From: Ruminococcus sp.
Lineage (GTDB): Bacteria; Bacillota; Clostridia; Oscillospirales; Ruminococcaceae
Direction of reading: 5' to 3'
DNA: 64,000 bases
NCBI GenBank assembly: GCA_015066975.1
Contig: SVNI01000001.1
Span: 62,001 to 126,000, forward strand
The notes under the pieces are model-generated. The model did not search any database, had not been told where the DNA came from, and worked only from the letters and a program-made list of their open reading frames with translations. Below are positions 2,040-18,411 of the stretch, in pieces. The position numbers were made by a program, and so were the translations under genes. Numbering within the stretch: position 1 is the stretch's first letter; every line of letters begins with the position of its first letter.

Positions 2040-3497
2040 ATGACTCAGATTTTTAATGCAAAAACTGTTGAAGACGCAAAAGAACTCGCTGCCCGTACAT
2101 TCGGGGTTGCCGAAAATGAAATTCAGTTTGAAATTCTCGAAGAACCTAAAAGAGGCTTTTTAGGAATTGGCAAAAAAGGCGAAGCTAAAGTCAAGGCTAC
2201 TTATGTTCCCATTACTATTTCAGAACCCGAAACAGATTCTTTTGAAGAAGATGTTCCGCCTGCTCCAGTTCAGGATTTCACAGAAACACCAGTAATTGAA
2301 ATTCCGGAAGAAGTTCCGGTATCTGAACCAATGAGTGAATCTGCAACAATCGTTCCGGAAGAAGTTCCGGCATCTGAATCAATGAGTGAATCTGCAACAA
2401 TTGTTCCGGAAGAAGTTCCGGCATCTGAATCAATGAGTGAATCTGCAACAATCGTTCCGGAAGAAGTTCCGGCATCTGAACCAATGAGTGAATCTGCAAC
2501 AATCGTTCCGGAAGAAATTCCGGTATCTGAATCAATGAGTGAATCTGCAACAATCGTTCCGGAAGAAATTCCGGTATCTGAATCAATGAGTGAATCTGCA
2601 ACAATTGTTCCGGAAGAAGTTCCGGCATCTGAATCAATGAGTGAATCTGCAACAATCGTTCCGGAAGAAGTTCCGGTATCTGAACCCGTGAGCGAATCTG
2701 CAACAATCGTTCCGGAAGAAGTTCCGGCATCTGAATCAATGAGTGAATCTGCAACAACTGCTCCTGAAAAACTTTCTTCCATCCAGCCTGATGATGAACT
2801 CATTATCGGTGAGCCGTCTGAATCCGCTCTCGCAAAAATCGAAAAAGCAAAAGAATATCTTACAGGCATTCTCATTGCTATGGGTGTGAAAGCTGAACTC
2901 AAAGTCAAGGCCGGAAGCGAAAGTGCTATTATCGAAATCCAGACTTCCAATAGTGGTGCTGTTATCGGCAAGCGCGGTGAAACTCTCGATTCTTTACAGT
3001 ATCTTACTTTTATGACCGCTAACCGTGCCGATAAAGAATATTACAGAATTATCCTGAATACAGCTAACTATCGTGAACGCAGAAGAAAAACTCTCGAAGA
3101 ACTCGCAAACAAAATCGCAAAGAATGTTCTGCATTCTCATCGCGCTACTACCCTCGAACCCATGAACCCTTATGAACGCAGAATTATTCATTCCGCAATC
3201 GCTGAAATCGAAGGTGTTACTTCCAAGAGTGTCGGCGAAGAACCTTACCGCAAAGTAGTAATTTCTTCTACCGAAAAGCCCCAGCGTCCCGGCAAACGCA
3301 GAAATTATCACGATAAACCCGACAGCAGAAACCGTGGAAGAAATCACGGCAGACGTGACAGCTCCAGAAGAAATCCTGATGCTCCGCCTACCAGAATCTC
3401 TATGGATTCTATGAAAACCAGTTTTGAAAAAGACTATAAGCGTCCTAAGCCGGAAGATGACCTTAATGCTGGTTTGTACGGAAAAATTGAATTCTAA
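2040..3497 (+). CDS. jag: Jag/KhpB RNA-binding protein (Jag-N, KH, R3H) with repeat-expanded linker
   Basis: Jag-N (AKTVEDAKELAARTFGVAENEIQFEILEEPKRGFLGIGKKGEAKV), KH (GAVIGKRGETLDSLQYLT), R3H (MNPYERRIIHSAI). Confidence 0.92.
   Translation: MTQIFNAKTVEDAKELAARTFGVAENEIQFEILEEPKRGFLGIGKKGEAKVKATYVPITISEPETDSFEEDVPPAPVQDFTETPVIEIPEEVPVSEPMSESATIVPEEVPASESMSESATIVPEEVPASESMSESATIVPEEVPASEPMSESATIVPEEIPVSESMSESATIVPEEIPVSESMSESATIVPEEVPASESMSESATIVPEEVPVSEPVSESATIVPEEVPASESMSESATTAPEKLSSIQPDDELIIGEPSESALAKIEKAKEYLTGILIAMGVKAELKVKAGSESAIIEIQTSNSGAVIGKRGETLDSLQYLTFMTANRADKEYYRIILNTANYRERRRKTLEELANKIAKNVLHSHRATTLEPMNPYERRIIHSAIAEIEGVTSKSVGEEPYRKVVISSTEKPQRPGKRRNYHDKPDSRNRGRNHGRRDSSRRNPDAPPTRISMDSMKTSFEKDYKRPKPEDDLNAGLYGKIEF
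2304..2762 (+). repeat. 9 x 51-bp in-frame tandem repeat (17 aa, P-E-E-[VI]-P-[VA]-S-E-[SP]-[MV]-S-E-S-A-T-[IT]-[VA])
   Basis: Nine consecutive units read directly from the sequence; differences are mostly single substitutions. Confidence 0.97.
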
Positions 3498-3571: not shown

Positions 3572-4957
3572 ATGCAACAACTTATTGATACTATCGCTGC
3601 CATTGCTACACCTAACGGTTCGGGCGGTGTCGCTGTTATTCGTATTTCCGGTGCGGATGCCATCCCCTGCGCCGAACAGTTCTTTCAGCCTGTCCGCGGA
3701 AAACGTCCTTCCCAAATGGACGGCTATACCTGTTCTTACGGTTATCTTCTGAATCAGAAACAGGAAATTCTGGATGATGTTGTTTTGACTGTGTTCAGAA
3801 ATCCCCACAGCTACACTGGGGAAGATGTTGTCGAAATTTCATGTCACGGCGGAAGATTTCTTTCCCAGAAAATTTTAAGAACTGTTCTGACTTATCCGGA
3901 TGTGCGTCTTGCGGAAGCTGGTGAATTCACCAAACGTGCTTTCCTCAACGGAAAACTCTCTCTTACGCAAGCCGAAGCTGTTGCAGATTTAATCTCTGCT
4001 TCCGGTGAAAATGCTGTGCGCTATGCCAGAACCCTAAGGGATGGTGCAACTTTCCGGAAAATTTCCGAATTTTCACAGATAATTCTGGAAATCCTGTCTG
4101 ATTTGGCTGTCTGGGCGGATTACCCTGACGAAGATATTCCCGGTGTAGATGCTACTACCTTAGGAGCGAAAATGCAACAATTATTATCTGACATGCGTCA
4201 ACTTATGTCAAGCTATGATTACGGAAAAATCCTCCGTGAAGGTCTGCATACTGTTATCGCCGGGAAACCTAATGTCGGCAAATCCACTCTCTTTAATGTT
4301 CTAAGCGGATGTGAGCGTAGTATTGTGACCGATATTGCCGGAACTACTCGTGATGTTGTCGAAGAACAAATCCGGCTTGGTGACGTCATACTCAGATTAT
4401 CCGATACTGCCGGGGTTCACAATACTGCCGATAAAGTGGAACAAATCGGCGTGGAACGCAGTCTTTCCAGTCTTGAACAGGCAGACTTGGTTCTTGCGGT
4501 GTTCGATATGAGCACCCCTCTTTCCAAAGAAGATAAACTCCTGCTCGAAAGGCTTCCCGAAGATAAAACCATTATCGTCTATAACAAATCTGACAAATCT
4601 AATCCGGATTTTCATCAGAACGTATTTTTCCACTTTTCTCCTGTGGAAACTGTTGAAATCTCTGCCCGGAATCAGGATAATATTCCGGAACTGCAAAATG
4701 CTGTGGAACGCTTTGCTGTCCGTCATGCTACTCCTGCCGAAGACGGCATGATTGCCAATGAACGTCAGCGTATCTGCCTTGAAAATGCCCTCTGTGCCGT
4801 TCAGGAAGCACTTGATGCACTCTCTATGGGGCTTGCCTTCGATGCTGTCACCGTCAGCCTTGACGCGGCCGCAGATGCCCTTCTTCAGCTTACTGGAGAA
4901 CGCGTTACTGATAAAGTTGTCGATACTGTTTTTGCTCGTTTCTGTGTTGGTAAATAA
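3572..4957 (+). CDS. mnmE: tRNA modification GTPase MnmE (TrmE)
   Basis: DTIAAIATPNGSGGVAVIRISG; GKPNVGKSTLFN; C-terminal FARFCVGK; start moved to the ATG after gaggag. Confidence 0.96.
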   Translation: MQQLIDTIAAIATPNGSGGVAVIRISGADAIPCAEQFFQPVRGKRPSQMDGYTCSYGYLLNQKQEILDDVVLTVFRNPHSYTGEDVVEISCHGGRFLSQKILRTVLTYPDVRLAEAGEFTKRAFLNGKLSLTQAEAVADLISASGENAVRYARTLRDGATFRKISEFSQIILEILSDLAVWADYPDEDIPGVDATTLGAKMQQLLSDMRQLMSSYDYGKILREGLHTVIAGKPNVGKSTLFNVLSGCERSIVTDIAGTTRDVVEEQIRLGDVILRLSDTAGVHNTADKVEQIGVERSLSSLEQADLVLAVFDMSTPLSKEDKLLLERLPEDKTIIVYNKSDKSNPDFHQNVFFHFSPVETVEISARNQDNIPELQNAVERFAVRHATPAEDGMIANERQRICLENALCAVQEALDALSMGLAFDAVTVSLDAAADALLQLTGERVTDKVVDTVFARFCVGK

Positions 4958-4995
4958 TACCATAATTTTTATTAATAAAGTGAGATGTTTAGTTT

Positions 4996-6870
4996 ATGAA
5001 TCAAGAATATGAAATGGGAAATTTTGATGTCATTATTGTCGGTGCTGGTCATGCCGGAGTAGAAGCCGGACTTGCTTCTGCACGGCTGGGCTGTAAAACC
5101 CTCCTGATGACTATCTCCCTTGACCAAATCGCGAATATGCCCTGTAATCCCTCTATCGGCGGTACGGCAAAAGGTCACCTCGTCCGCGAAATTGATGCCC
5201 TCGGCGGTGAAATGGGGCGTGCTGCGGATGCCTGTTTCTTACAGAGCCGTATGCTCAACAGAGGAAAAGGCCCTGCCGTTCACAGTCTCCGCGTGCAGGC
5301 TGACCGCGTGAAATATCACTCCCATATGAAACATATCTGTGAACAGCAGGAAAATTTATTCATCAAACAGGGCGAAGCTGCTCAGATTCTAGTTGAAGAT
5401 AACCACATCACCGGAATTGTCACAAAACTCGGTGCTGTCTACCATGCGAAAGCTGTTGTTATTGCTACTGGAACTTATCTTAAAGGCAAAATCCATATTG
5501 GTCAGGTTTCTTTCGAGAGCGGTCCTGATTCCGCTCTCCCTGCAAATGCGCTCTCTGAAAGTTTAAGACAATATCTTCCGCTGAGAAGATTCAAAACAGG
5601 TACACCCTGCCGTGTTCACAAAAGAAGCATTGACTTCGATATTCTCGAAAAACAAGACGGTGATTCCCAGATTGTTCCCTTTTCTTTCGAGAATCAGAAT
5701 CAGGAAATGAGAAATCAAGTCTCCTGTTATATTAGTTATACTAACCTGAAAACCCATGAGGTCATTAAAGCCAATCTGCACCGTTCGCCCCTCTATTCCG
5801 GTAATATCGAAGGTGTAGGCCCGCGTTACTGTCCCTCTATCGAAGATAAAGTCGTCCGCTTCGCCGATAAGGAACGCCATCAGCTTTTTATTGAGCCTAT
5901 GGGACTTTCTACTGATGAATATTATCTTCAGGGCATGTCTTCTTCCCTCCCTGAAGATGTTCAGCTTGCTTTTCTCAAAACTATCAAAGGGCTTGAACAT
6001 GTCGAAATTCTTCGTCCGGCCTATGCTATCGAATATGACTGCGTTGACCCGACTGCTCTTAAACCTACCCTGGAAACAAAAGCTGTTTCCGGATTGTTCG
6101 GCGCGGGGCAGTTCAACGGCAGTTCCGGCTATGAAGAAGCCGCTGCTCAAGGGCTTGTCGCTGGTATCAATGCTGCTTTATCCGTTCAGGGAAAAGAACA
6201 GCTTATTCTGGAACGCTCCGGCTCTTATATCGGCACTTTGATTGATGATCTCGTCTGCAAGGGATGCAGTGACCCCTACAGAATGATGACTTCCCGAAGC
6301 GAATACAGATTAGTATTAAGACAAGATAATGCAGATTTTCGCATGATGCCTATCGGTCATAAGCTTGGTCTTATTTCAGATGCGAAATATCAGAAAATGC
6401 TTGATAAATATGCCCTCGTTGAAACTGAAATCGACAGACTCAAGCATTCCAATCTTGCACCCACTTCCGAGCTTAACCAATTTCTGGAAAATTCCGGCAC
6501 TGCTCCGCTTTCGACAGGATGCAAGATAGCCGATTTAATCCGCCGTCCTCAGCTCGGCTATAATGTTCTCGCGCCTTTCGATTCCGAACGTCCTGAACTT
6601 TCTGACGAAATCCGTGAACAGGTTGAAATTCAAATCAAGTATGAAGGCTACATCAACAGACAATATGACATGATTCAGAAAGCTCAGAATCTCGAACAAA
6701 AGAAACTACCTCAGAATTTTGATTATCATGAAATACATGGTCTGCGTCTTGAAGCTATCGAAAAATTAAACAAGCATCAGCCTGTCAGCATCGGGCAGGC
6801 TTCGAGAATTTCAGGTGTTTCTCCGGCAGATGTTTCTGTTCTGCTTATCTGGCTGACACAAAATAAATAA
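4996..6870 (+). CDS. mnmG: tRNA uridine-5-carboxymethylaminomethyl modification enzyme MnmG (GidA)
   Basis: [55 protein letters not shown]. Confidence 0.97.
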
Positions 6871-6886
6871 TGTTCCACGTGGAACA
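6871..6886. promoter_or_regulatory. parS site 1 (exact TGTTCCACGTGGAACA)
   Basis: 16-bp perfect palindrome matching the parS core GTTNCACGTGNAAC; abuts the mnmG stop codon. Confidence 0.9.
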
Positions 6887-6907
6887 TTTTCAGGAGTGTG
6901 AAACTTT

Positions 6908-7309
6908 ATGATTCTTCCTGTTGGTGTAACCGGTTTTTTTCAGAAATCCATTCCGCCGGAACTTGATTTCAAAAACTTTCAGCAATATTGTTATTCTGTC
7001 AGAGAGTTTCCAGTGCTGGGAATCAGCAATCAGAAACAAAATAATTATTTCTGTGCAAAATTTCCGGATTTCTGCTTGCTTTTGAACAGATATTATCCGT
7101 TTGCAGGTTTTGTGAATGTTTTATCTTCCGAAAAAATATTTATTAATATCAGCTTTCCGGAGTTTTTTGCATATCAGTTTCTTCCGGCCGAATTCCTCAA
7201 CAGTCCCTTCGATTTCCGGAATCATCAGCTTTCAAAAGCAGAATTACAGCAGATTTTATATTGGAATCCGGTTTCTGTCGGAAATATTATCTTCAACGAA
7301 TGGGATTAA
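6908..7309 (+). CDS. Orphan hypothetical protein, immunity-like (ILPVG...FPVLGIS...YWNPVSVGNIIFNEWD)
   Basis: RBS aggag; preceded by parS 21 nt upstream; family recalled only loosely. Confidence 0.75.
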   Translation: MILPVGVTGFFQKSIPPELDFKNFQQYCYSVREFPVLGISNQKQNNYFCAKFPDFCLLLNRYYPFAGFVNVLSSEKIFINISFPEFFAYQFLPAEFLNSPFDFRNHQLSKAELQQILYWNPVSVGNIIFNEWD

Positions 7310-7317
7310 GTTTAAGA

Positions 7318-7333
7318 TGTTCCACGTGGAACA
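7318..7333. promoter_or_regulatory. parS site 2 (exact)
   Basis: TGTTCCACGTGGAACA. Confidence 0.9.
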
Positions 7334-7354
7334 TTTTGCAAAGAGGTGTGAAAC

Positions 7355-8161
7355 ATGTTCAAAATTCATTTTCAATTGCAGGAACTTGATAAAATTGTTC
7401 CGTGGGGTGATGAAAATCATCAGTCTATGCACTGGTACGGCCTTACTGATGGTTTACTCTGGATTACTGCCGGAAATCAGAATATTTATGAATATTCTCA
7501 AGAAGCAAGAGCTTTCTGGAATGAAGATATTCAGTATAATAATTATCAGATTTCGAGATTTCTGCAAGACTTTTCCGGAACGTTTCCGTTTATCTGCGAA
7601 TCCGTGCCGGAAGAAATTTATGACAATATCGAAAATTTTATGCCGATTACTGATAAATGGAAACGCATTCATGAAGATTTGCCGGATGATGTTTTTGATA
7701 AATGGTATTTTGATGAGGCGTACTGTCCTTTGACAGAATGGTTTTATCAGCAGAATTCTTTTGACTCCGCTCATCTCACGGGTGGTTATCAAATCGGCTG
7801 TTTCCGCTTTCAGGATAAAATCAAATTCTGGTGGGATAATGACGGGCGTATGCTTGAAAATCATATTCCTGTCTGGACTTCGCAAAAAGGCATTTATGAA
7901 ATGAAATATGCTGATTTTGTCAGAGAAGTGCAGAGATTCTTTGATGAATTCTTTCAGAAAATGGATGCTCAGGTGCAGAATGCTGTCGGAAAAGACTGGG
8001 GCAGAGTTCAGCTCGATAAAAATCAGCTCATGAGAGAACATCAAACCACAAAAGAAAGTTTTCAGCAGAAAATAGATGCTCTCTCAAAAAAGCCTCAGTT
8101 TCCAAGAGACTGGAATACGATTTCCGAACTCTGGAAAAAATGCCTTGAAGAACGCAATTAA
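7355..8161 (+). CDS. DUF5984-like protein (putative immunity-type)
   Basis: DKIVPWG...MHWYGLTDGLLWITAG...YQISRFLQDFSGTFPFICESVPEE; parS 21 nt upstream of ATG. Confidence 0.75.
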   Translation: MFKIHFQLQELDKIVPWGDENHQSMHWYGLTDGLLWITAGNQNIYEYSQEARAFWNEDIQYNNYQISRFLQDFSGTFPFICESVPEEIYDNIENFMPITDKWKRIHEDLPDDVFDKWYFDEAYCPLTEWFYQQNSFDSAHLTGGYQIGCFRFQDKIKFWWDNDGRMLENHIPVWTSQKGIYEMKYADFVREVQRFFDEFFQKMDAQVQNAVGKDWGRVQLDKNQLMREHQTTKESFQQKIDALSKKPQFPRDWNTISELWKKCLEERN

Positions 8162-8171
8162 AATTAAAACA

Positions 8172-8187
8172 TGTTCCACGTGGAACA
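8172..8187. promoter_or_regulatory. parS site 3 (exact)
   Basis: TGTTCCACGTGGAACA. Confidence 0.9.
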
Positions 8188-8206
8188 TGTTCAAAAGGTG
8201 AATTTT

Positions 8207-8551
8207 ATGCAAGAAATTACTGTTCTGGATGGATTATTTAAAATTTTATTTGCGATTTATCAAAACCCTACCATGTATCTCCGCAGAAAATCTATTTTTC
8301 AGCTTGAAATTTTTATACAGGGCATCCGTTATGGAGTTGTTTTAGATTGTCAGCAAAATCAGAGATTAAAACAGGAATTAGAGATTCTTCATCAGTTTGA
8401 TTTGTTCCTGAGACAGAAATATTTCTATGGTGCTTCACTTAATTGCTATTCTGCCTTGTACTGTCATTCCGGCGGAAATGAAGAAATTGCTTTTGGTTTA
8501 TTTTTTGAGGAACTCAAAATTTATCTGAATCAGAATACTATATCTATCTAA
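8207..8551 (+). CDS. Orphan hypothetical protein, copy 1 of tandem paralogue pair
   Basis: MQEITVLDGLFKILFA...; RBS aaaaggtg; start placed after parS rather than at the parS-encoded MFHVEH. Confidence 0.75.
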   Translation: MQEITVLDGLFKILFAIYQNPTMYLRRKSIFQLEIFIQGIRYGVVLDCQQNQRLKQELEILHQFDLFLRQKYFYGASLNCYSALYCHSGGNEEIAFGLFFEELKIYLNQNTISI

Positions 8552-8566
8552 ATACAAATATAGTAA

Positions 8567-8582
8567 TGTTCCACGTGGAGCA
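8567..8582. promoter_or_regulatory. parS site 4 (variant TGTTCCACGTGGAGCA)
   Basis: One mismatch from the exact site. Confidence 0.75.
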
Positions 8583-8602
8583 TTTTTCAAAAGGTGATTT
8601 TT

Positions 8603-8947
8603 ATGCAGGAAATTACTGTTCTGGATGGATTATTTAAAATTTTATTTGCTGTTCGTCAAGTTCCCGGAATGTTTCTCCGCAAAAAATCTATTTTTTATCT
8701 GGAAAATTTTATCCGCGGTTTGAGTACTGGCTTTACTCTGGACGGACAGCAGAATCATCAGCTGAAACAAGAACTGGAAATTCTTCATCAGTTCGATTTG
8801 TTTCTGCAACAAAAATATTTCTATGGATCTGCTCTTAACTGCTATTCTGATTTGTATTTTTATTCCGATAAAAATGAAGAAACCGCTTTTGATTTGTTTT
8901 TTCAGGAACTTGAAATCTATCTGAATCAAAATACTGTATCTGAATAA
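8603..8947 (+). CDS. Orphan hypothetical protein, copy 2 of tandem paralogue pair
   Basis: MQEITVLDGLFKILFA...; same length and leader as 8207-8551. Confidence 0.75.
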   Translation: MQEITVLDGLFKILFAVRQVPGMFLRKKSIFYLENFIRGLSTGFTLDGQQNHQLKQELEILHQFDLFLQQKYFYGSALNCYSDLYFYSDKNEETAFDLFFQELEIYLNQNTVSE

Positions 8948-8949
8948 AA

Positions 8950-8965
8950 TGTTCCACGTGGAACA
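8950..8965. promoter_or_regulatory. parS site 5 (exact)
   Basis: TGTTCCACGTGGAACA. Confidence 0.9.
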
Positions 8966-8984
8966 TTTTCAAGGAGTGTGAACC

Positions 8985-9332
8985 ATGACAGTTCCGGAAT
9001 TATTCGAAAATTATTATTTTCATGACAGCAGTTTCCTCAATATGGAATACTGTCCGGAATCTAAAATGGTAAAGCTGTACTGTCAATTTTGTGAGTTTAT
9101 GCAGAAAGATTATCGGGATTGTGAACCGACTAACAGCGATATTCTCATTCTCTTTCGGAATGCTTCGTTTTCTGGTCAGTTCTTTCGTGACTGCGGAATC
9201 CTTACACAAAAATTAATAGATAATCATACTATCTGCTTTTTTCTCGCTGATGAAAAGCATTCCGATTTTTCTGAATTTTCAGTTTCAGCGGATGATGTTC
9301 AAATTCAAGTTATCAGAAAATATCGTCTTTAA
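8985..9332 (+). CDS. Orphan hypothetical protein (immunity-like, 115 aa)
   Basis: FENYYFHDSSFLNMEYCPESK; RBS aaggag; parS 19 nt upstream. Confidence 0.75.
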   Translation: MTVPELFENYYFHDSSFLNMEYCPESKMVKLYCQFCEFMQKDYRDCEPTNSDILILFRNASFSGQFFRDCGILTQKLIDNHTICFFLADEKHSDFSEFSVSADDVQIQVIRKYRL

Positions 9333-9348
9333 TGTTCCATGTGGAACA
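9333..9348. promoter_or_regulatory. parS-like site 6 (variant TGTTCCATGTGGAACA)
   Basis: Single C-to-T change in the central CG; abuts the preceding stop codon. Confidence 0.7.
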
Positions 9349-9383
9349 TATTTCTTAAAAAAATCTTACTGGAGGTATCTATC

Positions 9384-10100
9384 ATGCCGATTCTGCCCGA
9401 TTATGAAACTTCTGAAAAATTATTTCAGGAGTATCAGCTTGATGTTCCACGTGGAACATTCGATAAACTTCAAATCTATGCTGATTTCTTAGTTGATTAT
9501 AATCAGCATGTTAATCTGACTGCCATCACTGACGGAAATGAAATTCTTCGGAAACATTTCCTCGACAGCTTTCTGTTATATTCTCATGCTGGAAACTATT
9601 TTCCGGATTCTGCAAAGATACTGGATATCGGAAGCGGTGCGGGTTTTCCCGGCGTTCCGCTGGCTCTGCTCCGTCCCGATTTTGATATTACTCTGCTTGA
9701 TAGTCTTGGAAAGCGCATCACGTTTCTTGAATTATTAAGACAGAAATTAGACTGTTCATTTTCTGCCGTTCATGGCCGGGCAGAAGAATTCGCTAAACTT
9801 CCCGATTATCGGGAATGCTTTGATGTTGTGACTGCCCGTGCGGTTGCTTCCCTTCCTATGCTCGCCGAATTCTCCCTCCCATATGTCAGAATTGGCGGTT
9901 TCTGGATTTCTATGAAAGGAAAAGAAGATATTTCCCCGGCACTTTCTGCCATTCTGAAACTTGGCGGAAAGCTAGAACAGACTATCTCCTATCAGCTTCC
10001 TGACGGTGACGAAAGAATGCTTTATATCATAAAAAAAATATCGCCCACTCCGACAAAATACCCCAGAAAATTTGCTCAGATTAAGCAAAAGCAACTGTAA
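9384..10100 (+). CDS. rsmG: 16S rRNA (guanine527-N7)-methyltransferase RsmG
   Basis: VNLTAITDGNEILRKHFLDSFLL...ILDIGSGAGFPGVPLALLRPDFDITLLDSLGKRITFL; RBS ctggagg. Confidence 0.96.
   Translation: MPILPDYETSEKLFQEYQLDVPRGTFDKLQIYADFLVDYNQHVNLTAITDGNEILRKHFLDSFLLYSHAGNYFPDSAKILDIGSGAGFPGVPLALLRPDFDITLLDSLGKRITFLELLRQKLDCSFSAVHGRAEEFAKLPDYRECFDVVTARAVASLPMLAEFSLPYVRIGGFWISMKGKEDISPALSAILKLGGKLEQTISYQLPDGDERMLYIIKKISPTPTKYPRKFAQIKQKQL
9443..9458. promoter_or_regulatory. parS site 7 (exact), inside rsmG coding sequence
   Basis: TGTTCCACGTGGAACA read as D-V-P-R-G-T. Confidence 0.9.
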
Positions 10101-10120
10101 AAAAAGACGAATATGTTCGG

Positions 10121-10158
10121 AAATCCGTTATTTTCAAAAGAAATAACGGATTTTTTTT
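10121..10158 (+). terminator. Rho-independent terminator after rsmG
   Basis: aaatccgttatt...aataacggatttttttt. Confidence 0.85.
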
Positions 10159-10248
10159 ATAGCAATGATTTCCCATATCTGTTATAATTAAATTATAGAG
10201 AGATACAACAAAACTTTTTCCATAGAACAACCGAAAGGAGCATTTCTC

Positions 10249-11067
10249 ATGTCTGCAATTCTTACCGTCCCGAAAAATCTTACCGAACAGCGGGTGATGC
10301 ATATCCGTATTGAGGATATTCGCCCGAATCCCCATCAGCCGAGAATTTTCTTTCAGCCTGAAGAACTTCGGGCACTTTCTGACAGTATCCGGCAGAATGG
10401 CATTCTTCAGCCCTTAACCGTCCGACAGTGCGGTGATTACTATGAACTTATTGCAGGTGAACGCCGTCTCCGTGCCGCAAGAATTGCCGGACTCCGCTGT
10501 GTTCCCTGTATTGTCATGGAAATCAATGACCGGAACTCTGCTATTCTCGCACTGGTCGAAAATATTCAGAGACAGGATTTAAACTATTTTGAAGAAGCTG
10601 CTGCGCTTGAAAAATTAATTACTTACTACGGTATGACTCAGGAAGATGCCGCTGTTCAGCTCGGACGAGCCCAGAGCACTGTTGCCAATAAACTTCGTCT
10701 GCTTCGCCTTACCGAAAAAGAGAAAAATTATATTCTCGAAAATCAGCTCACTGAACGTCATGCCCGTGCGCTTCTCAAAATCGCAAACCCTGAAGAACGC
10801 ATGGCTGTTCTTGAAAAAATCACCAAACTCGGCCTGAACGTTGAGAAAACAGAACAGTTTATTGAAGAAAAACTTAATCATGCCAGAGAACAGGAAAATT
10901 TCCGCAAACGAAGCGTTCTGTTCCGGGATGTGCGCTTGTTCACTAATACCATTCAGAAGGCTGTCGAAACCATGCAGGCCGCCGGCATTTCCGCAGAATC
11001 CCAGAAAATGCAGTTCTCTGACTATATCGAATACAGAATCCGCATTCCCCTGAACCAGAAAAATTGA
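10249..11067 (+). CDS. noc: Noc-type ParB-family nucleoid occlusion protein
   Basis: ParB N-domain (RPNPHQPR, IAGERRLRAARIAG), Noc-like recognition region GRAQSTVANKLRLLRL...TERHARALL; located after rsmG. Confidence 0.88.
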   Translation: MSAILTVPKNLTEQRVMHIRIEDIRPNPHQPRIFFQPEELRALSDSIRQNGILQPLTVRQCGDYYELIAGERRLRAARIAGLRCVPCIVMEINDRNSAILALVENIQRQDLNYFEEAAALEKLITYYGMTQEDAAVQLGRAQSTVANKLRLLRLTEKEKNYILENQLTERHARALLKIANPEERMAVLEKITKLGLNVEKTEQFIEEKLNHAREQENFRKRSVLFRDVRLFTNTIQKAVETMQAAGISAESQKMQFSDYIEYRIRIPLNQKN

Positions 11068-11079
11068 TTTTTAAAGTCA

Positions 11080-11095
11080 TGTTCCACGTGGAACA
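11080..11095. promoter_or_regulatory. parS site 8 (exact)
   Basis: TGTTCCACGTGGAACA. Confidence 0.9.
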
Positions 11096-11121
11096 TTGCA
11101 CCGGATGTCATTCACGGTTGT

Positions 11122-11137
11122 TGTTCCACGTGGAACA
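11122..11137. promoter_or_regulatory. parS site 9 (exact)
   Basis: TGTTCCACGTGGAACA, 42 bp start-to-start from site 8. Confidence 0.9.
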
Positions 11138-11170
11138 AATTATTTTTTTCTGCAAAATTTTTAAATTATC

Positions 11171-11199
11171 TTTACAAATCTGCTTAAACATGCTATAAT
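11171..11199 (+). promoter_or_regulatory. Sigma-A-like promoter of parA
   Basis: TTTACA-N17-TATAAT. Confidence 0.75.
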
Positions 11200-11238
11200 A
11201 AATAAGAAGTACAAAACAGAAAGGAGCTATCCTTACTT

Positions 11239-12042
11239 ATGGGTAAAGTGATTGCTGTCGCCAATCAGAAAGGCGGCGTAGGTAAATCTACTACTACTGT
11301 CAATTTAGCCGCTTATCTCGGCTCAAGAGAAAAAAAAGTCCTCTGTATCGATATTGATGCCCAGGGAAATTTAACAACCGGTTTCGGTATCCGTAAAAAA
11401 GGCCTGAAATATTCTGCTTATGAAGTACTTACCGGAAAAGCCAGAATTCAGGATGCTGTCATTCAGACAGCGTTCCAGAACGTTTCTGTTGTTCCGGCGA
11501 CTTCTGACCTTGCAGGAGCAGAAATTGAACTCGTCAATATGGAACAGCGTTTCAACCGCCTGAAAATGCAGGTTCTTACGCTAAGAGATGATTATGATTT
11601 TATCTTTATTGACTGCCCTCCGGCACTCGGTCAGCTTACACTCAACGGCATGACTGCATGTGATGAAATTCTAATTCCCATGCTCGCTGAATATTACGCA
11701 CTCGAAGGCCTGACACAGCTCGTAAATACCATGAAGCTCGTCAAAGCAAATTATAACCCCTCTCTTGATATTCTCGGCATTGTCTTCACAATGTATGACA
11801 ACCGCCTGAATGTCTCGAAACAAGTTGTGGAAGAAGTCGAGAAATATTTCCCGGAAAAAATCTTTCAGACCAAAATTCCCAGAAATGTCCGTCTTTCTGA
11901 AGCTCCCAGCTACGGAAAACCTGTCATGTATTACGATAAGCATTCCAAAGGCACGATTGCTTATGAGTGTCTTGGAAAAGAACTCCTTGGCGAACCGCTG
12001 AGCAGTATCATGAAACTGCGCCTTAATATCGCAAAAGATTAA
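11239..12042 (+). CDS. parA: ParA/Soj chromosome partitioning ATPase
   Basis: MGKVIAVANQKGGVGKSTTTVNLAAYLG deviant Walker A; DYDFIFIDCPPALGQLTLN. Confidence 0.97.
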   Translation: MGKVIAVANQKGGVGKSTTTVNLAAYLGSREKKVLCIDIDAQGNLTTGFGIRKKGLKYSAYEVLTGKARIQDAVIQTAFQNVSVVPATSDLAGAEIELVNMEQRFNRLKMQVLTLRDDYDFIFIDCPPALGQLTLNGMTACDEILIPMLAEYYALEGLTQLVNTMKLVKANYNPSLDILGIVFTMYDNRLNVSKQVVEEVEKYFPEKIFQTKIPRNVRLSEAPSYGKPVMYYDKHSKGTIAYECLGKELLGEPLSSIMKLRLNIAKD

Positions 12043-12060
12043 TCTGAAAGGTACAGACAT

Positions 12061-12393
12061 ATGAATTTTACCGGAATCCTTATCGGAATGATTTCTTTTC
12101 TGATTATCGGCCTTTTTCATCCTATTGTAATCTGGGCAGAATACTATTTCTCTAAAAAAATATGGCCTGCCTTTGCAGGTGTCGGCCTGCTGTGCCTGCT
12201 TCCCTCCCTCTTGAGCCAGAATGCTTATCTGAGCTGTGCTTTTGCTGTTATTTCGGCAAGCTCTTTCTGGAGTATTAAAGAACTCTTTGAACAGGAACAG
12301 CGCGTTCTGAAAGGCTGGTTTCCCAAAAATCCCAAAAGAACTTATCAAGTTTCGCACAGTTCTGAAAAAAATGTGAATTCCGATTTATCTTAA
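12061..12393 (+). CDS. DUF4491-like small membrane protein between parA and parB
   Basis: MNFTGILIGMISFLIIGLFHPIVIWAEYYFSKKIWP...FWSIKELFEQEQRVLKGWFPKNPKR. Confidence 0.8.
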   Translation: MNFTGILIGMISFLIIGLFHPIVIWAEYYFSKKIWPAFAGVGLLCLLPSLLSQNAYLSCAFAVISASSFWSIKELFEQEQRVLKGWFPKNPKRTYQVSHSSEKNVNSDLS

Positions 12394-12423
12394 AAAATCT
12401 ATTACAGAAAGTGATGTGATGTT

Positions 12424-13329
12424 ATGGCGAAAGGCGGTCTCGGCGGTGGCTTAGGCTCTCTCTTTGAAGACAATGCTGCCGAAATCCAGACGAAAAAAAC
12501 AATTCGATTATCAGAGATTGAACCAAACCGGAATCAGCCCCGAAAAATTTTTGATGAATCTGCTATTTCTTCCCTTGCAGATTCCATCCGGGAACACGGC
12601 CTTCTACAGCCGATTCTCGTCCGGCCTCTCCCACTTGGTAATTATCAGATTGTTGCCGGAGAACGAAGATGGCGTGCTGCAAGAATGCTCGGCCTGACTG
12701 AAGTCCCTGTCATCATCCGCGAATTGTCCGATATTGAAACAGCACAGATTGCCCTTATCGAAAATATTCAGCGTGAAGATTTAAATCCGCTTGAAGAAGC
12801 AAAAGCCTTTCAGCGTTTGCAGGATGATTTCGGCATGAAGCAGGAAGATATCGCCAAAAAAGTCGGCTGTTCACGAAGTTCTGTTACTAATGCTCTGCGG
12901 CTTCTCAAACTTCCTGAAGAAATTCAAGCGATGCTTGTCAGAAACGAAATCACTTCCGGACATGCCAAGGCACTGCTTAGTTTCAGTGATGAAAATGCAA
13001 TGCTTCAGGCTGCATACAAAGCCGCCCAAGGTCTGCTCAATGTTCGGCAAATTGAAAAATTAGCGGCTGATTCGGAGTCCAAAGAACTTGATGACATTCC
13101 AATTTCTAAATCTGTTTCCTATTTTGGCGAAATTGAACATGCACTTCATACCCGGCTTGGCAGAAAAGTCAAAGTCCAGTTCAAGAAGAATAAAGGCACA
13201 CTCAGCCTTGAATTCTATGATGAAGAAGATTTGAAACTCCTTGCGGAACTTCTCTCGCCTAATGAGGAGGGCAGTACTTTTGAATCGGCTTATGACTATG
13301 TGGACAAGCACGAAAAAAATTATGATTAA
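12424..13329 (+). CDS. parB: ParB/Spo0J centromere-binding CTPase
   Basis: KGGLGGGLGSLF; PNRNQPRKIFDE; VAGERRWRAARMLG; parS-type recognition GCSRSSVTNALRLLKL...SGHAKALL. Confidence 0.96.
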   Translation: MAKGGLGGGLGSLFEDNAAEIQTKKTIRLSEIEPNRNQPRKIFDESAISSLADSIREHGLLQPILVRPLPLGNYQIVAGERRWRAARMLGLTEVPVIIRELSDIETAQIALIENIQREDLNPLEEAKAFQRLQDDFGMKQEDIAKKVGCSRSSVTNALRLLKLPEEIQAMLVRNEITSGHAKALLSFSDENAMLQAAYKAAQGLLNVRQIEKLAADSESKELDDIPISKSVSYFGEIEHALHTRLGRKVKVQFKKNKGTLSLEFYDEEDLKLLAELLSPNEEGSTFESAYDYVDKHEKNYD

Positions 13330-13337
13330 TTTTTAAA

Positions 13338-13353
13338 TGTTCCACGTGGAACA
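13338..13353. promoter_or_regulatory. parS site 10 (exact)
   Basis: TGTTCCACGTGGAACA. Confidence 0.9.
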
Positions 13354-13377
13354 TTTTTACAGGAAAGGTTTCCCATC

Positions 13378-13776
13378 ATGGAAGACGTCTTCTATCTCTG
13401 CCCACAAAAAATTACTGTTGCTCATATAAAACAGGTCTTTCAGAATATCAGTTCTGATAATATTATTTCAGATGATGAACGTCTGCAAATTATCTGGAAA
13501 GAATCAGAAAAATTACAGTTTATTGAATTCTACCTCTTCCCTGATTATATGTACTCTGTGGATGAGGAGGAAACAGAACTCATGCTTGATACTATCCGGA
13601 AATATCATGTCAGCACAGTTGTCGGCATTCTGCATCATACAAGACATATTCCAATCGTACTGAAATATACTGCCCTGCTCATGCAGAAATTCGGCGGTGT
13701 GCTTGGTACGGATACCCCCGGTTTTTTCCCTTGTTTCTCCCTCGCTGAACTTCAAAAATTTCAGCATCAAGATTAA
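13378..13776 (+). CDS. Orphan hypothetical protein (132 aa)
   Basis: ORF with parS 24 nt upstream of the ATG; RBS aggaaagg; no family recognised. Confidence 0.7.
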   Translation: MEDVFYLCPQKITVAHIKQVFQNISSDNIISDDERLQIIWKESEKLQFIEFYLFPDYMYSVDEEETELMLDTIRKYHVSTVVGILHHTRHIPIVLKYTALLMQKFGGVLGTDTPGFFPCFSLAELQKFQHQD

Positions 13777-13793
13777 CCAAGTTTATTTTTAAA

Positions 13794-13809
13794 TGTTCCA
13801 CGTGGAACA
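13794..13809. promoter_or_regulatory. parS site 11 (exact)
   Basis: TGTTCCACGTGGAACA. Confidence 0.9.
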
Positions 13810-13833
13810 TTTTCACAGAAAGGATTTTTTATT

Positions 13834-15126
13834 ATGTTAGATATGAAATTTTTAAGAACCAATCCTGATATTGTAAAGGAAAATATCAAAAAGAAATTTC
13901 AGGATGAAAAATTACCCCTGGTTGACGAAGTTATCGAACTCGATAAACAGTTCCGTGATGCCAAACTCAAGGGCGATGAACTCCGCGCTCAAAGAAAAGC
14001 AAAAAGTAAATTAATCGGCGGACTTATGGCAAAAGGTCAGAAAGAAGAAGCCGAAGCTGTTAAAGCTGAAGTCTCCGCTATGGGCGACGAACTTACTGCA
14101 CTCGAACAGAAAGAAGCTGAAATGCAACAGGAAATCAAGAAAATTATGATGATTATCCCTAACATCATTGACCCCTCTGTTCCGATTGGCAAAGATGATT
14201 CTGAAAATGTCGAAATTGAAAAGTTCGGCGAACCCTTTACCCCTGACTTTGAAATTCCCTATCATGTCGATATTATGGAAAAACTCAACGGCATCGACCT
14301 CGATTCCGCCAGAAAAACTTCCGGCAACGGCTTCTATTATCTCTGCGGTGATATTGCAAGACTGCATTCTTCCATTCTCTCTTATGCAAGAGATTTCATG
14401 ATTAACAGAGGATTTACTTATTATATCCCTCCGTTTATGATTCGTTCCGATGTCGTGACCGGTGTTATGAGCTTTGCCGAAATGGAAGGCATGATGTATA
14501 AAATCGAAGGCGAAGATTTATATTTAATCGGCACTAGCGAACATTCCATGATTGGCAAATTTATTGATACTATCCTCCCCGAAGAAAATCTCCCCCAGAC
14601 CCTCACAAGCTATTCTCCCTGCTTCCGTAAAGAAGTCGGCGCGCACGGCATCGAAGAACGTGGCGTTTACAGAATTCATCAGTTTGAAAAACAGGAAATG
14701 ATTGTTGTCTGCAAACCGGAAGACAGCATGGCTTGGTTCGATAAGCTCTGGCAGAATTCTGTTGATTTCTTCCGTACACTCGATATTCCGGTCAGAACGC
14801 TCGAATGCTGTTCCGGCGACCTCGCAGACCTGAAAGTTAAGTCCCTTGATGTTGAAGCATGGTCTCCCCGTCAGCAGAAATATTTTGAAGTCGGAAGCTG
14901 TTCCAATCTCGGTGATGCACAGGCAAGAAGACTTGGCATCCGTGTCAGAAAAGAAGACGGTACAAAATATTTTGCACATACCCTCAATAATACCGTTGTC
15001 GCTCCGCCCCGTATGCTGATTGCTTTCCTTGAAAATAATCTCAATGAAGACGGCTCTATCCGTATTCCGGAAGCACTTCGCCCCTATATGGGCGGTATGG
15101 AAGTTATTTCTGTTCCGGTCAAATAA
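13834..15126 (+). CDS. serS: Seryl-tRNA synthetase
   Basis: MLDMKFLRTNPDIVKENIKKKF...; GTSEHSMIGKF; CFRKEVGAHGIEERGVYRIHQFEKQEM. Confidence 0.97.
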   Translation: MLDMKFLRTNPDIVKENIKKKFQDEKLPLVDEVIELDKQFRDAKLKGDELRAQRKAKSKLIGGLMAKGQKEEAEAVKAEVSAMGDELTALEQKEAEMQQEIKKIMMIIPNIIDPSVPIGKDDSENVEIEKFGEPFTPDFEIPYHVDIMEKLNGIDLDSARKTSGNGFYYLCGDIARLHSSILSYARDFMINRGFTYYIPPFMIRSDVVTGVMSFAEMEGMMYKIEGEDLYLIGTSEHSMIGKFIDTILPEENLPQTLTSYSPCFRKEVGAHGIEERGVYRIHQFEKQEMIVVCKPEDSMAWFDKLWQNSVDFFRTLDIPVRTLECCSGDLADLKVKSLDVEAWSPRQQKYFEVGSCSNLGDAQARRLGIRVRKEDGTKYFAHTLNNTVVAPPRMLIAFLENNLNEDGSIRIPEALRPYMGGMEVISVPVK

Positions 15127-15147
15127 TTTCTTCATGTTTTTCTCTCA

Positions 15148-15163
15148 TGTTCCACGTGAAAAT
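15148..15163. promoter_or_regulatory. Degenerate parS-like site 12 (TGTTCCACGTGAAAAT)
   Basis: Left half and central CACGTG intact, right half decayed; 15 bp from site 13. Confidence 0.55.
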
Positions 15164-15178
15164 GTTCCACGTGGAACA
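15163..15178. promoter_or_regulatory. parS site 13 (exact)
   Basis: TGTTCCACGTGGAACA. Confidence 0.9.
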
Positions 15179-15197
15179 TTTTTTATTTCTTCATCTC

Positions 15198-15226
15198 TTG
15201 ACAAAATCATTCAAAAGTGCTATTAT
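15198..15226 (+). promoter_or_regulatory. Sigma-A-like promoter
   Basis: TTGACA-N17-TATTAT upstream of the 15249 ORF. Confidence 0.75.
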
Positions 15227-15248
15227 ATCCCTAAAGAGGTGATTTGCT

Positions 15249-15740
15249 TTGAAAACTATGAATTGTCCTCAGTGTGGCGGTGTTCTCCATCTTACACAGT
15301 ATCCCGGTGTCTATCATTGCAGATACTGCCGGAATATTATCGAATCTAATGTGATTGCTCTCCATGAAATGGAACTCCAAAAATATCAGCTCCAGCTTCA
15401 GGAACAGGCTTTGCTTGAAGAAAAAACGGCTCGGCTCAAAAGTCTGAAAAAAGTTCGGAACTGGCAGTATCTTTGTGCATTCTGGTGGGGATTTATTGCA
15501 CTTACTTTTCTTCTCGGTATCTTTGCGGTATGCTGTCCGACTACATTGTCTCATGTACTGGCAAATATGATAATGATGTGTCTGCAACTGCGGGCTGTCG
15601 GCTCACTGGCCGTGACATGCGCCCGTCCTGATAAGAACTATGAATTATCTGCCCCGCCGGCATGTTCACAGGGAGTTTTGATATTCCTTTTCTGGTTTGC
15701 GGATATGTTTCAATGGGTGTTTGTCATACTGGCATCGTAG
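15249..15740 (+). CDS. Zinc-ribbon membrane protein, hypothetical
   Basis: CPQCGGVLHL...YHCRYCRNI zinc ribbon, two hydrophobic segments. Confidence 0.7.
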   Translation: MKTMNCPQCGGVLHLTQYPGVYHCRYCRNIIESNVIALHEMELQKYQLQLQEQALLEEKTARLKSLKKVRNWQYLCAFWWGFIALTFLLGIFAVCCPTTLSHVLANMIMMCLQLRAVGSLAVTCARPDKNYELSAPPACSQGVLIFLFWFADMFQWVFVILAS

Positions 15741-15748
15741 AAATTTCA

Positions 15749-15764
15749 TGTTCCACGTGGAACA
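15749..15764. promoter_or_regulatory. parS site 14 (exact)
   Basis: TGTTCCACGTGGAACA. Confidence 0.9.
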
Positions 15765-15783
15765 TTTTCAAATCACAAAAATA

Positions 15784-15813
15784 AGGACGGCAAACTGTCG
15801 TCCTCTTTTTTTT
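15784..15813 (+). terminator. Terminator between two parS-like sites
   Basis: aggacg...cgtcct followed by tttttttt. Confidence 0.75.
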
Positions 15814-15828
15814 GTTCCACATGGAACA
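15813..15828. promoter_or_regulatory. parS-like site 15 (variant TGTTCCACATGGAACA)
   Basis: Single G-to-A change in the central CG. Confidence 0.7.
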
Positions 15829-16668
15829 TTATTCTTCTTCGGAATAAACTGTTACTTCCATTCCATACGCTTTCAGACTCTTGATTTCCTGCTCCGAAAG
15901 CTGATAGTCAGAAATCAGGATTTTTTTCAAAGAAGGCAAATGCATCAGTTCTTCTTTGGAAATTATCAATTCCGGACAATTGTGATAATCCAGCGTTTCC
16001 AAACGTTCGGCATTCTCAAAATGAATTTCTTTCAGTTCCGGATTGTTTGCAACATTCAGATAGCGCACAGCATTGTGACTGAATGTCAGTTCTTCTACAG
16101 AACTATACCAGATTTGCAGATAATCAAGATATTTCAACTGCGGAAACTGTTCTGTTGAAACTGTCTTTTCTTCTACTCCAGATAAGGCAAGACTCTTTAA
16201 GCCCGGTGTCAGCGATTCAATTCCGTTCAGACTGTGAATTTTGATATCTCTTATCAAAAACTGTCCTATCCATAATACCCGAAGCCGTTCCGCATCCGAA
16301 AAACAGGATACATCTGAAAGCTCCGCATAACCATTAAGACAGACATATTCCAGATTTCTGCAAGTTGATAATGATGAAATATCTGTTATCGGTTCGGCTA
16401 AATTATCCACAGAAAAATTTTCCAGCAGAGGCATGTACTCTACAAAAGAAATATCTTTTGTCTGCATGTCAGAAACAGAAAGTTCTCTTATTTGCGGAAA
16501 GAATTTTAATTTTTCTGCATCATGCTGATTCAGGCTTTCTATCCGCAGTTCTGAACAGAAACGATTCACGAATTTTCCATCAATCCGCACAATGCTCAAA
16601 CAGCACAGAACTATCACGCATATCACGGCAATCAGAAGTTTCTGCTTTGCGGTGAATTTTCTTGTCAT
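15829..16668 (-). CDS. Leucine-rich-repeat-like protein with N-terminal TM
   Basis: KLLIAVICVIVLCCLSIVRI TM; repeated LxxLxL patterns (LKSLALSG, VRYLNVANNPELKEIHFENAERLETLDYHNCPEL). Confidence 0.7.
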   Translation of the reverse strand: MTRKFTAKQKLLIAVICVIVLCCLSIVRIDGKFVNRFCSELRIESLNQHDAEKLKFFPQIRELSVSDMQTKDISFVEYMPLLENFSVDNLAEPITDISSLSTCRNLEYVCLNGYAELSDVSCFSDAERLRVLWIGQFLIRDIKIHSLNGIESLTPGLKSLALSGVEEKTVSTEQFPQLKYLDYLQIWYSSVEELTFSHNAVRYLNVANNPELKEIHFENAERLETLDYHNCPELIISKEELMHLPSLKKILISDYQLSEQEIKSLKAYGMEVTVYSEEE

Positions 16669-16687
16669 ATTTCAAGCTCCCCAAAAA

Positions 16688-16703
16688 TGTTCCACGTGGA
16701 ACA
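16688..16703. promoter_or_regulatory. parS site 16 (exact), leader of the minus-strand LRR gene
   Basis: TGTTCCACGTGGAACA; 19 nt upstream of the minus-strand ATG at 16668. Confidence 0.9.
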
Positions 16704-16708
16704 TTTTC

Positions 16709-17659
16709 TTAATCAATTATCTGTGCAGAACCAGTGTTCAGAAGCATTTCTGCGCCGTCATCCAGACGGATACAAAGCCCGGCTTCTTCTGTAAAGCTTT
16801 CTGCTATGCCTTCCAGTCCGGTATCTGTCCGTACTCTGTGCCCCAGCGTACAGGAATTTTCTGTATATACTTCCAGATATGTCCGGTCGAAAATTTCCAG
16901 AAAATATTTTCTCATCTGTTTTAAAATCTCTGCTGTCAGTTCGCATTTGTTGATGTGCTTTCCCGTTTCGGTTTCAATATCCGTAACAATCGGCTTTAAT
17001 TCTTCCGGAAGATGCGGATCGGGATGCAGATTGATGCCAATCCCAATTATCAGATAATCCATTTTCAGCATCTCTGCATTGAAACTCCCCTCTGAAAGAA
17101 TTCCGCAGATTTTTTTATGATTCAGAAATAAATCATTTACCCATTTGATTTGTGTCTCTATTCCGAATTTTTTCAGTGCTTCATGTACTGCTGTGGCTGT
17201 ACATGCTGTGATGCTCATCATGGCAGATAACTGCAAATCCGGATGGATTACCACAGACATATATAACCCGCCGGTCGGCGAATGAAAACTCTTGCCCATT
17301 CTGCCCCGGCCTGCTGTCTGCACATCTGCTGTGACAACAGTCCCGTCCGGTGCGCCCTGCGAAGCCAGTTCTTTTGCTAATCTGTTCGTAGAATCCAGTT
17401 CTTCATAATGCTGTACTTGCCAGTTTGTCCCCTCCAGAAGCATCTGCATATATGTCTGATTATAAATATCCGGAATCTTTTTCAGAAGATACCCTTTATT
17501 TGTAATCGCATCAATTTCACAGCCCTGCGCCTTTAACTGGTCAATCGCCTTCCAAATGGCTGTACGGCTGACCCCGAATTTTTCTGCAAGCTGTCCGCCG
17601 GAACAATATTCTCCCTTGGACAATATTAATTCTGTCAGGATTTTTTCTTTCAGGCTCAT
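16709..17659 (-). CDS. birA: Bifunctional biotin--[acetyl-CoA-carboxylase] ligase / biotin operon repressor BirA
   Basis: HTH GGQLAEKFGVSRTAIWKAIDQLKAQG; ligase GRGRMGKSFHSPTGGLYMSVV; KWVNDLF. Confidence 0.94.
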   Translation of the reverse strand: MSLKEKILTELILSKGEYCSGGQLAEKFGVSRTAIWKAIDQLKAQGCEIDAITNKGYLLKKIPDIYNQTYMQMLLEGTNWQVQHYEELDSTNRLAKELASQGAPDGTVVTADVQTAGRGRMGKSFHSPTGGLYMSVVIHPDLQLSAMMSITACTATAVHEALKKFGIETQIKWVNDLFLNHKKICGILSEGSFNAEMLKMDYLIIGIGINLHPDPHLPEELKPIVTDIETETGKHINKCELTAEILKQMRKYFLEIFDRTYLEVYTENSCTLGHRVRTDTGLEGIAESFTEEAGLCIRLDDGAEMLLNTGSAQIID

Positions 17660-17740
17660 GTTTCAGTCCCCCTATTTTTCTGTTCGCTTTACTTATATTA
17701 TAGCATATTTTTCAATCTCTTTCAAGTACTTCCTGAAAAA

Positions 17741-17756
17741 TGTTCCACATGGAACA
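17741..17756. promoter_or_regulatory. parS-like site 17 (variant TGTTCCACATGGAACA)
   Basis: Same central variant as site 15. Confidence 0.7.
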
Positions 17757-17811
17757 TTTTTTTCATGCCGTCATATAATGCAGGAGAATCTTCCAAAAGG
17801 GGTGAATACCT

Positions 17812-18411
17812 ATGTTTCAGGCTTGTCTGCTGGCATTTGCTGTATGTATGGATACATTTTTTGCCTCTATCGGGTGCAGTATGAACGGCATTTTGATTCC
17901 AAAACGCTGTGCCTTTCTCATCAGTGCGGTGGGAACGGCATTTCTGACAATTTCTCTGTATGGTGCGCAGATTCTCGGCAGAATCCTGCCCGAAAACGTT
18001 TTCAGATATGCCGGATTCCTGATTCTGTTACTGCTTGGCAGTTCCCAGATTATGAAAGAAATGCTGACGGCTCTGTTCCGAAAACATCGTCCGCACTGGA
18101 AATGGAACGCGCTCGGCCTTGTTATCAGCATCTGCTTTGATGAAACGCTTGCTGATACAGACCATTCCAAAACGCTCAGTATGCGTGAAGCTATCGCCTA
18201 TTCTTCGGCACTTTCACTGGATTCTCTTGCAAGCGGACTGGGGGCAGGCATTCAGAAGCAAGCTGTTCCGGCCTGTCTGCTTTTGACGTTCTGTGCCGGA
18301 TTTCTGCTGACAATGCTCGGCACAAAAATTGGTAAAATCTGCCATACAAAACACCATCTTTCATGGCTTGGGGGTGTCATGCTCCTGATTCTTGCATTGG
18401 GCAGATTATAA
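17812..18411 (+). CDS. YtaF/MntP-like membrane protein
   Basis: AFAVCMDTFFASIGCSMNGI...; duplicated half ALSLDSLASGLGAGI; 6 hydrophobic segments. Confidence 0.7.
   Translation: MFQACLLAFAVCMDTFFASIGCSMNGILIPKRCAFLISAVGTAFLTISLYGAQILGRILPENVFRYAGFLILLLLGSSQIMKEMLTALFRKHRPHWKWNALGLVISICFDETLADTDHSKTLSMREAIAYSSALSLDSLASGLGAGIQKQAVPACLLLTFCAGFLLTMLGTKIGKICHTKHHLSWLGGVMLLILALGRL

Follow-up and report, generated by a model that had tools for sequence, protein, structure and literature searches.

The interval between mnmG and rsmG in this Ruminococcus sp. genome is occupied by an island of five short genes with a parS site at every junction, and comparison with relatives points to the exchange of parS-bounded units between species; these two features together are what appears notable about the locus. 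We consider it rather probable that accessory genes, most of them immunity-like, form a heterogeneous array here within the origin-proximal parABS centromere, and that the repeated parS and leader would let units be gained, lost and swapped.

On the + strand of the window (the whole 64,000-nucleotide stretch of DNA that was analysed), five short co-directional ORFs of 114-268 aa, o1 to o5, separate mnmG, with its stop at 6870, from rsmG, with its start at 9384 (Table 1). The first-pass annotation had described five ORFs between these genes, each led by a parS site, and this observation is confirmed: in all five cases the start codon lies 19-21 nt past the end of parS, with a purine-rich ribosome-binding leader in the gap. 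The paralogue pair that it had noticed is o3 and o4. The repeating unit consists of a parS, a ribosome-binding leader of ~20 nt and one ORF; units are arranged head to tail, and parS flanks every gene on both edges. The local gene order is trmE-mnmG-[o1-o5]-rsmG-noc-soj-DUF4491-parB-[132-aa gene]-serS. The island genes would be read within the mnmG-rsmG transcript, because all are co-directional and the 19-21 nt leaders are too short for promoters. In 4900-18000, promoter-like matches occur at close to the chance number (34 vs 28). By score, the parS palindromes would also pass for terminator-like hairpins and could conceivably affect the transcript.

Table 1. Features of the island and of the wider parS region (window coordinates)
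Feature	Position	Strand	Remarks
parS	6871..6886		exact TGTTCCACGTGGAACA; immediately 3' of mnmG stop codon; island start
o1, 133 aa	6908..7309	+	C-terminal YWNPVSVGNIIFNEWD
parS, o1/o2 junction	7318..7333		exact match
o2, 268 aa, DUF5984 (PF19446)	7355..8161	+
parS, o2/o3 junction	8172..8187		exact match
o3, 114 aa, paralogue of o4	8207..8551	+	identity to o4 73%
parS, o3/o4 junction	8567..8582		1 mismatch
o4, 114 aa, paralogue of o3	8603..8947	+
parS, o4/o5 junction	8950..8965		exact match
o5, 115 aa, predicted polymorphic-toxin immunity protein	8985..9332	+
parS, directly 3' of o5 stop, ahead of rsmG	9333..9348		1 mismatch; island end
parS inside rsmG coding sequence	9443..9458		translated VPRGTF; in relatives with and without island, conserved across genus
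two parS sites, noc/soj interval	11080..11137
DUF4491 gene, soj/parB interval	12061-12393		E 7e-39; also in nearest relatives
second parS-bounded accessory gene, 132 aa, parB/serS interval	13378-13776 (slot 13338..13809)	+	parS at 13338, 13794
parS-bounded accessory stretch after serS, then birA	15163..17756		parS at 15163, 15749, 15813, 16688, 17741
zinc-ribbon membrane protein, after serS	15258-15740	+	parS-bounded
leucine-rich-repeat protein, after serS	15829-16668	-	parS-bounded; LRR_4, E 1e-9

The location of the island within a parABS centromere, also part of the earlier description, is borne out: the 16-bp palindrome fits the parS consensus, and noc, soj and parB lie inside the cluster of sites. 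The genome has 16 parS sites (with at most 1 mismatch), every one of them within a single 11-kb stretch, window 6871-17756; the whole window contains 17 sites with at most 3 mismatches from TGTTTCACGTGAAACA, against 0.32 expected. Noc-type sites (ATTTCCCGGGAAAT) have no match in the island even when 3 mismatches are allowed, which rules out that the island sites are Noc-type rather than parS. The site inside the rsmG coding sequence, conserved across the genus, looks like an ancestral one.

The mnmG-rsmG region was compared across all genus genomes with a recognised rsmG, together with four genomes outside the genus. At 27 genus loci the gap between the two genes is only 4-85 nt, with no parS between them, in keeping with the earlier statement that mnmG and rsmG are adjacent or nearly so. 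The absence of the island genes from these 27 loci rules out that they are universal core genes; as the proposed pangenome comparison makes clear, they are accessory and their content turns over. In G014 the mnmG-rsmG place is rearranged. The island occurs at nine loci in eight genomes (G000, G019, G042, G050, G024, G008, G044 and G051, the last with two loci). Five of the island-bearing genomes are Oscillospiraceae or Ruminococcus MAGs, and two sources are ruminant stomach (goat omasum and roe deer rumen).

Both content and order of the island vary between species. The present genome and G042 carry o1-o2-o3-o4-o5; G019 carries x115-o1-x120-o2-o3-o4-SF0329-o5; G050, o5-SF0329-o2; G024, o4-fragment-o5-SF0329-o2; and G008, o4-o5, with o5 fused to an x120-like part. 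At contig edges, G044 shows o4-o2 and G051 shows o1-o2. Unrelated genes fill the second G051 locus, among them a cupin (Cupin_2, E 3e-14) and a partial tandem copy, and each junction there has its parS; the truncated tandem gene copy begins 3 nt after a parS. Across the nine island loci, parS lies within 15 nt past the upstream stop, or overlaps the end of the upstream ORF, at 36 of 36 junctions, with a median gap of 2 nt. The two mnmG/rsmG regions of G051, on contigs C85 and C45, have diverged unequally (rsmG 80% and 75% identical to the window), and this MAG may therefore mix two species.

Nucleotide homology blocks shared between species begin and end where the units do. No more than 20 nt separates 261 of the 268 block ends from a parS-leader block; in 2000 random placements this number averaged 52 and never exceeded 74. 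The block ends are non-independent (reciprocal and related pairs), and many edges fall on the first base of parS. Since parS edges are gene edges too, this test shows the exchange of whole [parS-gene] units and not a role for parS. The clearest single case is o4, whose unit is 96% identical to that of G024 and 95% to that of G044, with flanks at 80-83%; between G024 and G044 the o4 unit is 99.7% identical and rsmG 81%, and rsmG identity in the comparisons among these two and the present genome is 77-81%. Between the present genome and G024, o4 has a dS of 0.12 and mnmG one of 0.90. Similarly, o2 is 91% identical to its counterparts in G044 and G051, where rsmG is at 77-78%. Aligned with G019, the units ahead of the parS at 8950 are 91-100% identical; identity drops to 48-76% only between that site and the parS at 9333, and recovers afterwards; between the corresponding sites G019 has SF0329 and a divergent o5. 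The island genes share 94-99% identity with those of G042, and mnmG and rsmG 85-86% overall, with the transition in the 3' part of mnmG. These comparisons show that single parS-bounded units were transferred between species. The island can thus not be called fixed in the centromere, as the first-pass annotation had it, since the array is variable and exchanged between species.

dN/dS is 0.09-0.30 for every gene tested (0.13-0.16 for o1, 0.10-0.19 for o2), indicating that all tested island genes are under purifying selection and are therefore maintained proteins; these values, and the presence of the ORFs at full length across species, rule out that the ORFs are spurious or decaying.

The parS-bounded arrangement is not confined to the island. 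Between parB and birA, gene content differs in G008, G024, G050 and G047, with unrelated genes in either orientation; the 132-aa gene between parB and serS has an 82% relative in G019 and is missing at that place in G024 and G008. In G047 (L117, G047:C10:185000-198300), parS-bounded slots between birA and serS (9546-12162) hold a GH5 cellulase with a dockerin (E 1e-59) and a methyltransferase. With cupin, GH5 cellulase and methyltransferase among the parS-bounded inserts of the clade, the arrangement is broader than the 'immunity bank' that had been proposed, a term that proves too narrow. The parS sequence itself has changed in part of the genus: exact TGTTCCACGTGGAACA is found in 16 of 38 genus genomes, at 7-30 copies in most, and is absent from the other 22; in relatives that lack it, the sites read TGTTTCACGTGAAACA or a close variant. 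Across the family, exact TGTTYCACGTGRAACA sites number 0-3 in most of the genomes sampled, a few outliers apart.

How might such an array form? In the reading that we prefer, the short parS-leader repeats would recombine, by a RecA-dependent route or by template switching, and units would be gained, lost and swapped as a result. The 16-bp parS with its similar 20-nt leader would be homology enough for occasional recombination, and any arriving [parS-leader-ORF-parS] fragment could then be acquired or lost, with related rumen bacteria as the probable source of the incoming DNA. Each parS would be retained because it doubles as a ParB loading site of the centromere. Two findings count against parts of this scheme: the shared parS-leader homology, at 16 to ~38 nt, is near the lower limit for homologous recombination, and the exchange of whole genes would give the same breakpoints as exchange specific to parS. 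A bolder version would make parS the point at which gene cassettes are joined: origin-proximal genes would be captured, exchanged and retained as [parS-leader-ORF] units, the centromere would serve as a modular accessory bank in rumen Oscillospiraceae, and ParB/Noc-parS would be active in capture or upkeep. This version strikes us as improbable.

The multiplied sites could also be accounted for by centromere reinforcement: parS would have been multiplied as extra ParB loading sites that aid segregation or SMC loading, with the small genes riding along as spacers. The rise from ~3 parS sites to 10-31 in one subclade, which also switched to TGTTCCACGTGGAACA, would fit such a process, as would the tandem multiplication of parS in relatives (a 203-bp unit in G016, a 69-70 bp spacing in G047) and the non-immunity genes among inserts elsewhere. 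However, the purifying selection on the island genes and the recurrence of the same families in different orders argue that they are not neutral filler, and 0-5 sites suffice for almost all sampled genomes of the family. We regard reinforcement as an unlikely explanation.

Alternatively, parS itself could be the recombination site, with ParB/Noc-bound parS, or its hairpin, cut or docked by a recombinase or by the replication-repair machinery in the manner of attC or dif. This possibility, which we think very unlikely, gains something from the many block edges at the first base of parS, from the G051 tandem copy truncated just past a parS, and from the unrelated genes inserted in both orientations between parB and birA; yet no recombinase was recognised in or beside the array, and the 35-38-nt parS-leader homology accounts for the same edges more simply. 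To our knowledge, parS is a ParB-binding site for which neither a recombinase nor a cleavage chemistry is known.

What the array of exchangeable units encodes is clearest for o5. A profile search found remote homologues of o5 in the order. Two of them, each in another genome, stand immediately behind one kind of toxin C-terminal domain, and o5 therefore looks like the immunity protein of a polymorphic toxin. The G254 homologue (L112) lies directly downstream of an ORF ending ...GxxGFxGxxHYHxxNP..., and in G082 (L113) it follows a like C-terminal domain that closes a 392-aa protein with pre-toxin-like sequence. These two domains have no Pfam or NCBIfam match, and we take them to be toxins from their architecture. 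The toxin-like gene of G082 (L113, G082:C6, 6274-7583) has an in-frame TGA ahead of the conserved HYH-NP part of its C-terminal domain. Structure prediction had been proposed earlier as a check. The AlphaFold model of o5 is all-beta (pLDDT 73), and the PDB entry closest to it, 5v77 from Neisseria, is an uncharacterised protein and suggestive at most (TM ~0.5, E 0.09); the model of o2 is too poor for use (pLDDT 44). No relative of the G254 toxin domain was found in 61 genomes, a search with a single query and hence weak evidence, and no LXG protein in 14 genus genomes, on which sample LXG/T7SS toxins were rejected as the source. The island genes are, to that extent, orphans, as had been claimed; that none of the searched genomes of the genus yielded a toxin whose domain matches counts against the array explanation.

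For the other island genes the earlier label 'immunity-like' is more tentative than for o5: o1, o2 and o3/o4 have no Imm profile match, and no toxin neighbour in any genome examined. The protein described as DUF5984-like is o2, which matches PF19446 at E 8e-58 (196 bits against a curated cut-off of 23.8, profile positions 2-243 of 245), a family that no paper in the literature searched mentions by name. It occurs in seven island loci, at varying positions, and few genomes of the order carry DUF5984 (2 of 396 above the cut-off). For o1 there is no Pfam or NCBIfam family; its relatives in G019 and G042 are 92-95% identical, and remote homologues at 29-42% lie among small accessory genes on plasmids of Bacillota and actinobacteria, mostly those of Bacillaceae. 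The o1 homologue of G251 sits within an array of small genes, one of which we take, by eye, to be SMI1/KNR4-like. The o3/o4 family is confined to this clade: a search of 296 further genomes from the order gave no relative. SF0329 (PF25753, E 3e-45) is in the islands of G019, G050 and G024. A search for solved structures related by sequence to o1, o2, o3/o4 and o5 gave none worth reporting. Phage genes and known anti-phage defence genes were rejected as candidates, there being no PHROG and no PADLOC match.

On this evidence the immunity part of the preferred reading is its weaker inference: the products would be cytoplasmic orphan immunity proteins that neutralise the toxins of neighbours, and the likely benefit would be protection from toxins of rumen neighbours, which gene context backs for o5 only. 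The GH5 cellulase, methyltransferase and cupin inserts are clearly not immunity genes and count against it. That the region is simply an ordinary accessory hotspot, where origin-proximal genes turn over and parS sites happen to be plentiful, the gene functions having nothing to do with toxin immunity, has some appeal, given that most families have no assigned function, that o1 homologues lie in mixed accessory plasmid regions without toxins, and that cellulase and cupin inserts exist, but we give it little credence, as it leaves the parS and conserved leader at every junction unexplained, does not accommodate the toxin-linked o5 homologues, and passes over the small size, co-orientation and heterogeneity that fit polyimmunity loci (PMC3482391).

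By anatomy, the closest known systems are heterogeneous polyimmunity loci and rAID arrays. The former (Zhang et al., 2012; PMC3482391), whose listed members include LRR proteins, resemble the island in their tandem genes of one orientation, which encode small cytoplasmic proteins unrelated to each other and have no toxin genes between them; unlike in those loci, only o5 here has toxin-linked relatives, parS stands between all genes, and the locus lies inside a parABS region. What defines the rAID (recombinase-associated acquired interbacterial defence) systems of Bacteroidales is a tyrosine recombinase together with short orphan immunity genes in one orientation and conserved motifs between the genes (PMC12247911). 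The island is likewise a co-oriented array of short genes (orphan immunity genes of ~100-300 codons in rAID) with a conserved intergenic motif, parS plus leader, present at 36/36 junctions; it differs in that the motif is parS, the host is a rumen member of the Bacillota, and the immunity role is a predicted one. No tyrosine recombinase was recognised in window 1-20207 by reading the ORF translations. The dif/pdif modules of Acinetobacter plasmids (PMC6449649, PMC13141974) are also described as accessory genes bounded by a chromosome-maintenance site and shuffled as modules, but they move via XerC/XerD at dif, unlike the parS array. The esaG/tipC type VII secretion immunity arrays (PMC9484751) are described as Firmicute arrays that grow and shrink by recombination between conserved blocks; those blocks lie within paralogous genes, whereas here they are the parS-leader segments between unrelated genes. 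We class the island as a polyimmunity-like array that has parS as its repeat and is embedded in the parABS centromere.

According to its authors, it is not yet clear how the rAID system acquires homologous copies (PMC12247911). Here, the repeat between units is parS, the centromere site and thus a recognised class of functional site, and the sequence itself reveals breakpoints, donors and acceptors, so that the question of how arrays are assembled becomes testable in culture. If the preferred reading is true, the parS copy number of a genome can reflect gene-cassette turnover and not segregation needs alone. No prior description of parS-bounded gene arrays was found in the literature searched, with most subscription papers outside the search.

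High parS numbers also occur elsewhere in the family, where the outliers include G452 (89 exact sites), G014 (31) and G571 (24), and G506 and G586 have 32 and 28 parS sites in genomes of less than 1 Mb. The 89 sites of G452 were considered as gene cassettes and rejected, as the stretches read show mostly similar flanking repeats or intergenic DNA. The tandem unit of G016 (L049, 4852-5774) contains parS, is present in 4.6 copies and lies in the rsmG/noc interval; the tandem-repeat parS of G047 (L045, 10727-11087) follow noc. A tandem repeat of another kind is found in the window itself at 2040-3497, where an ORF after yidC, which we take to be jag/khpB-like, has a tandemly repeated segment (VPEEVPASESMSESATI and variants) preceding a nucleic-acid-binding-like C-terminal part.
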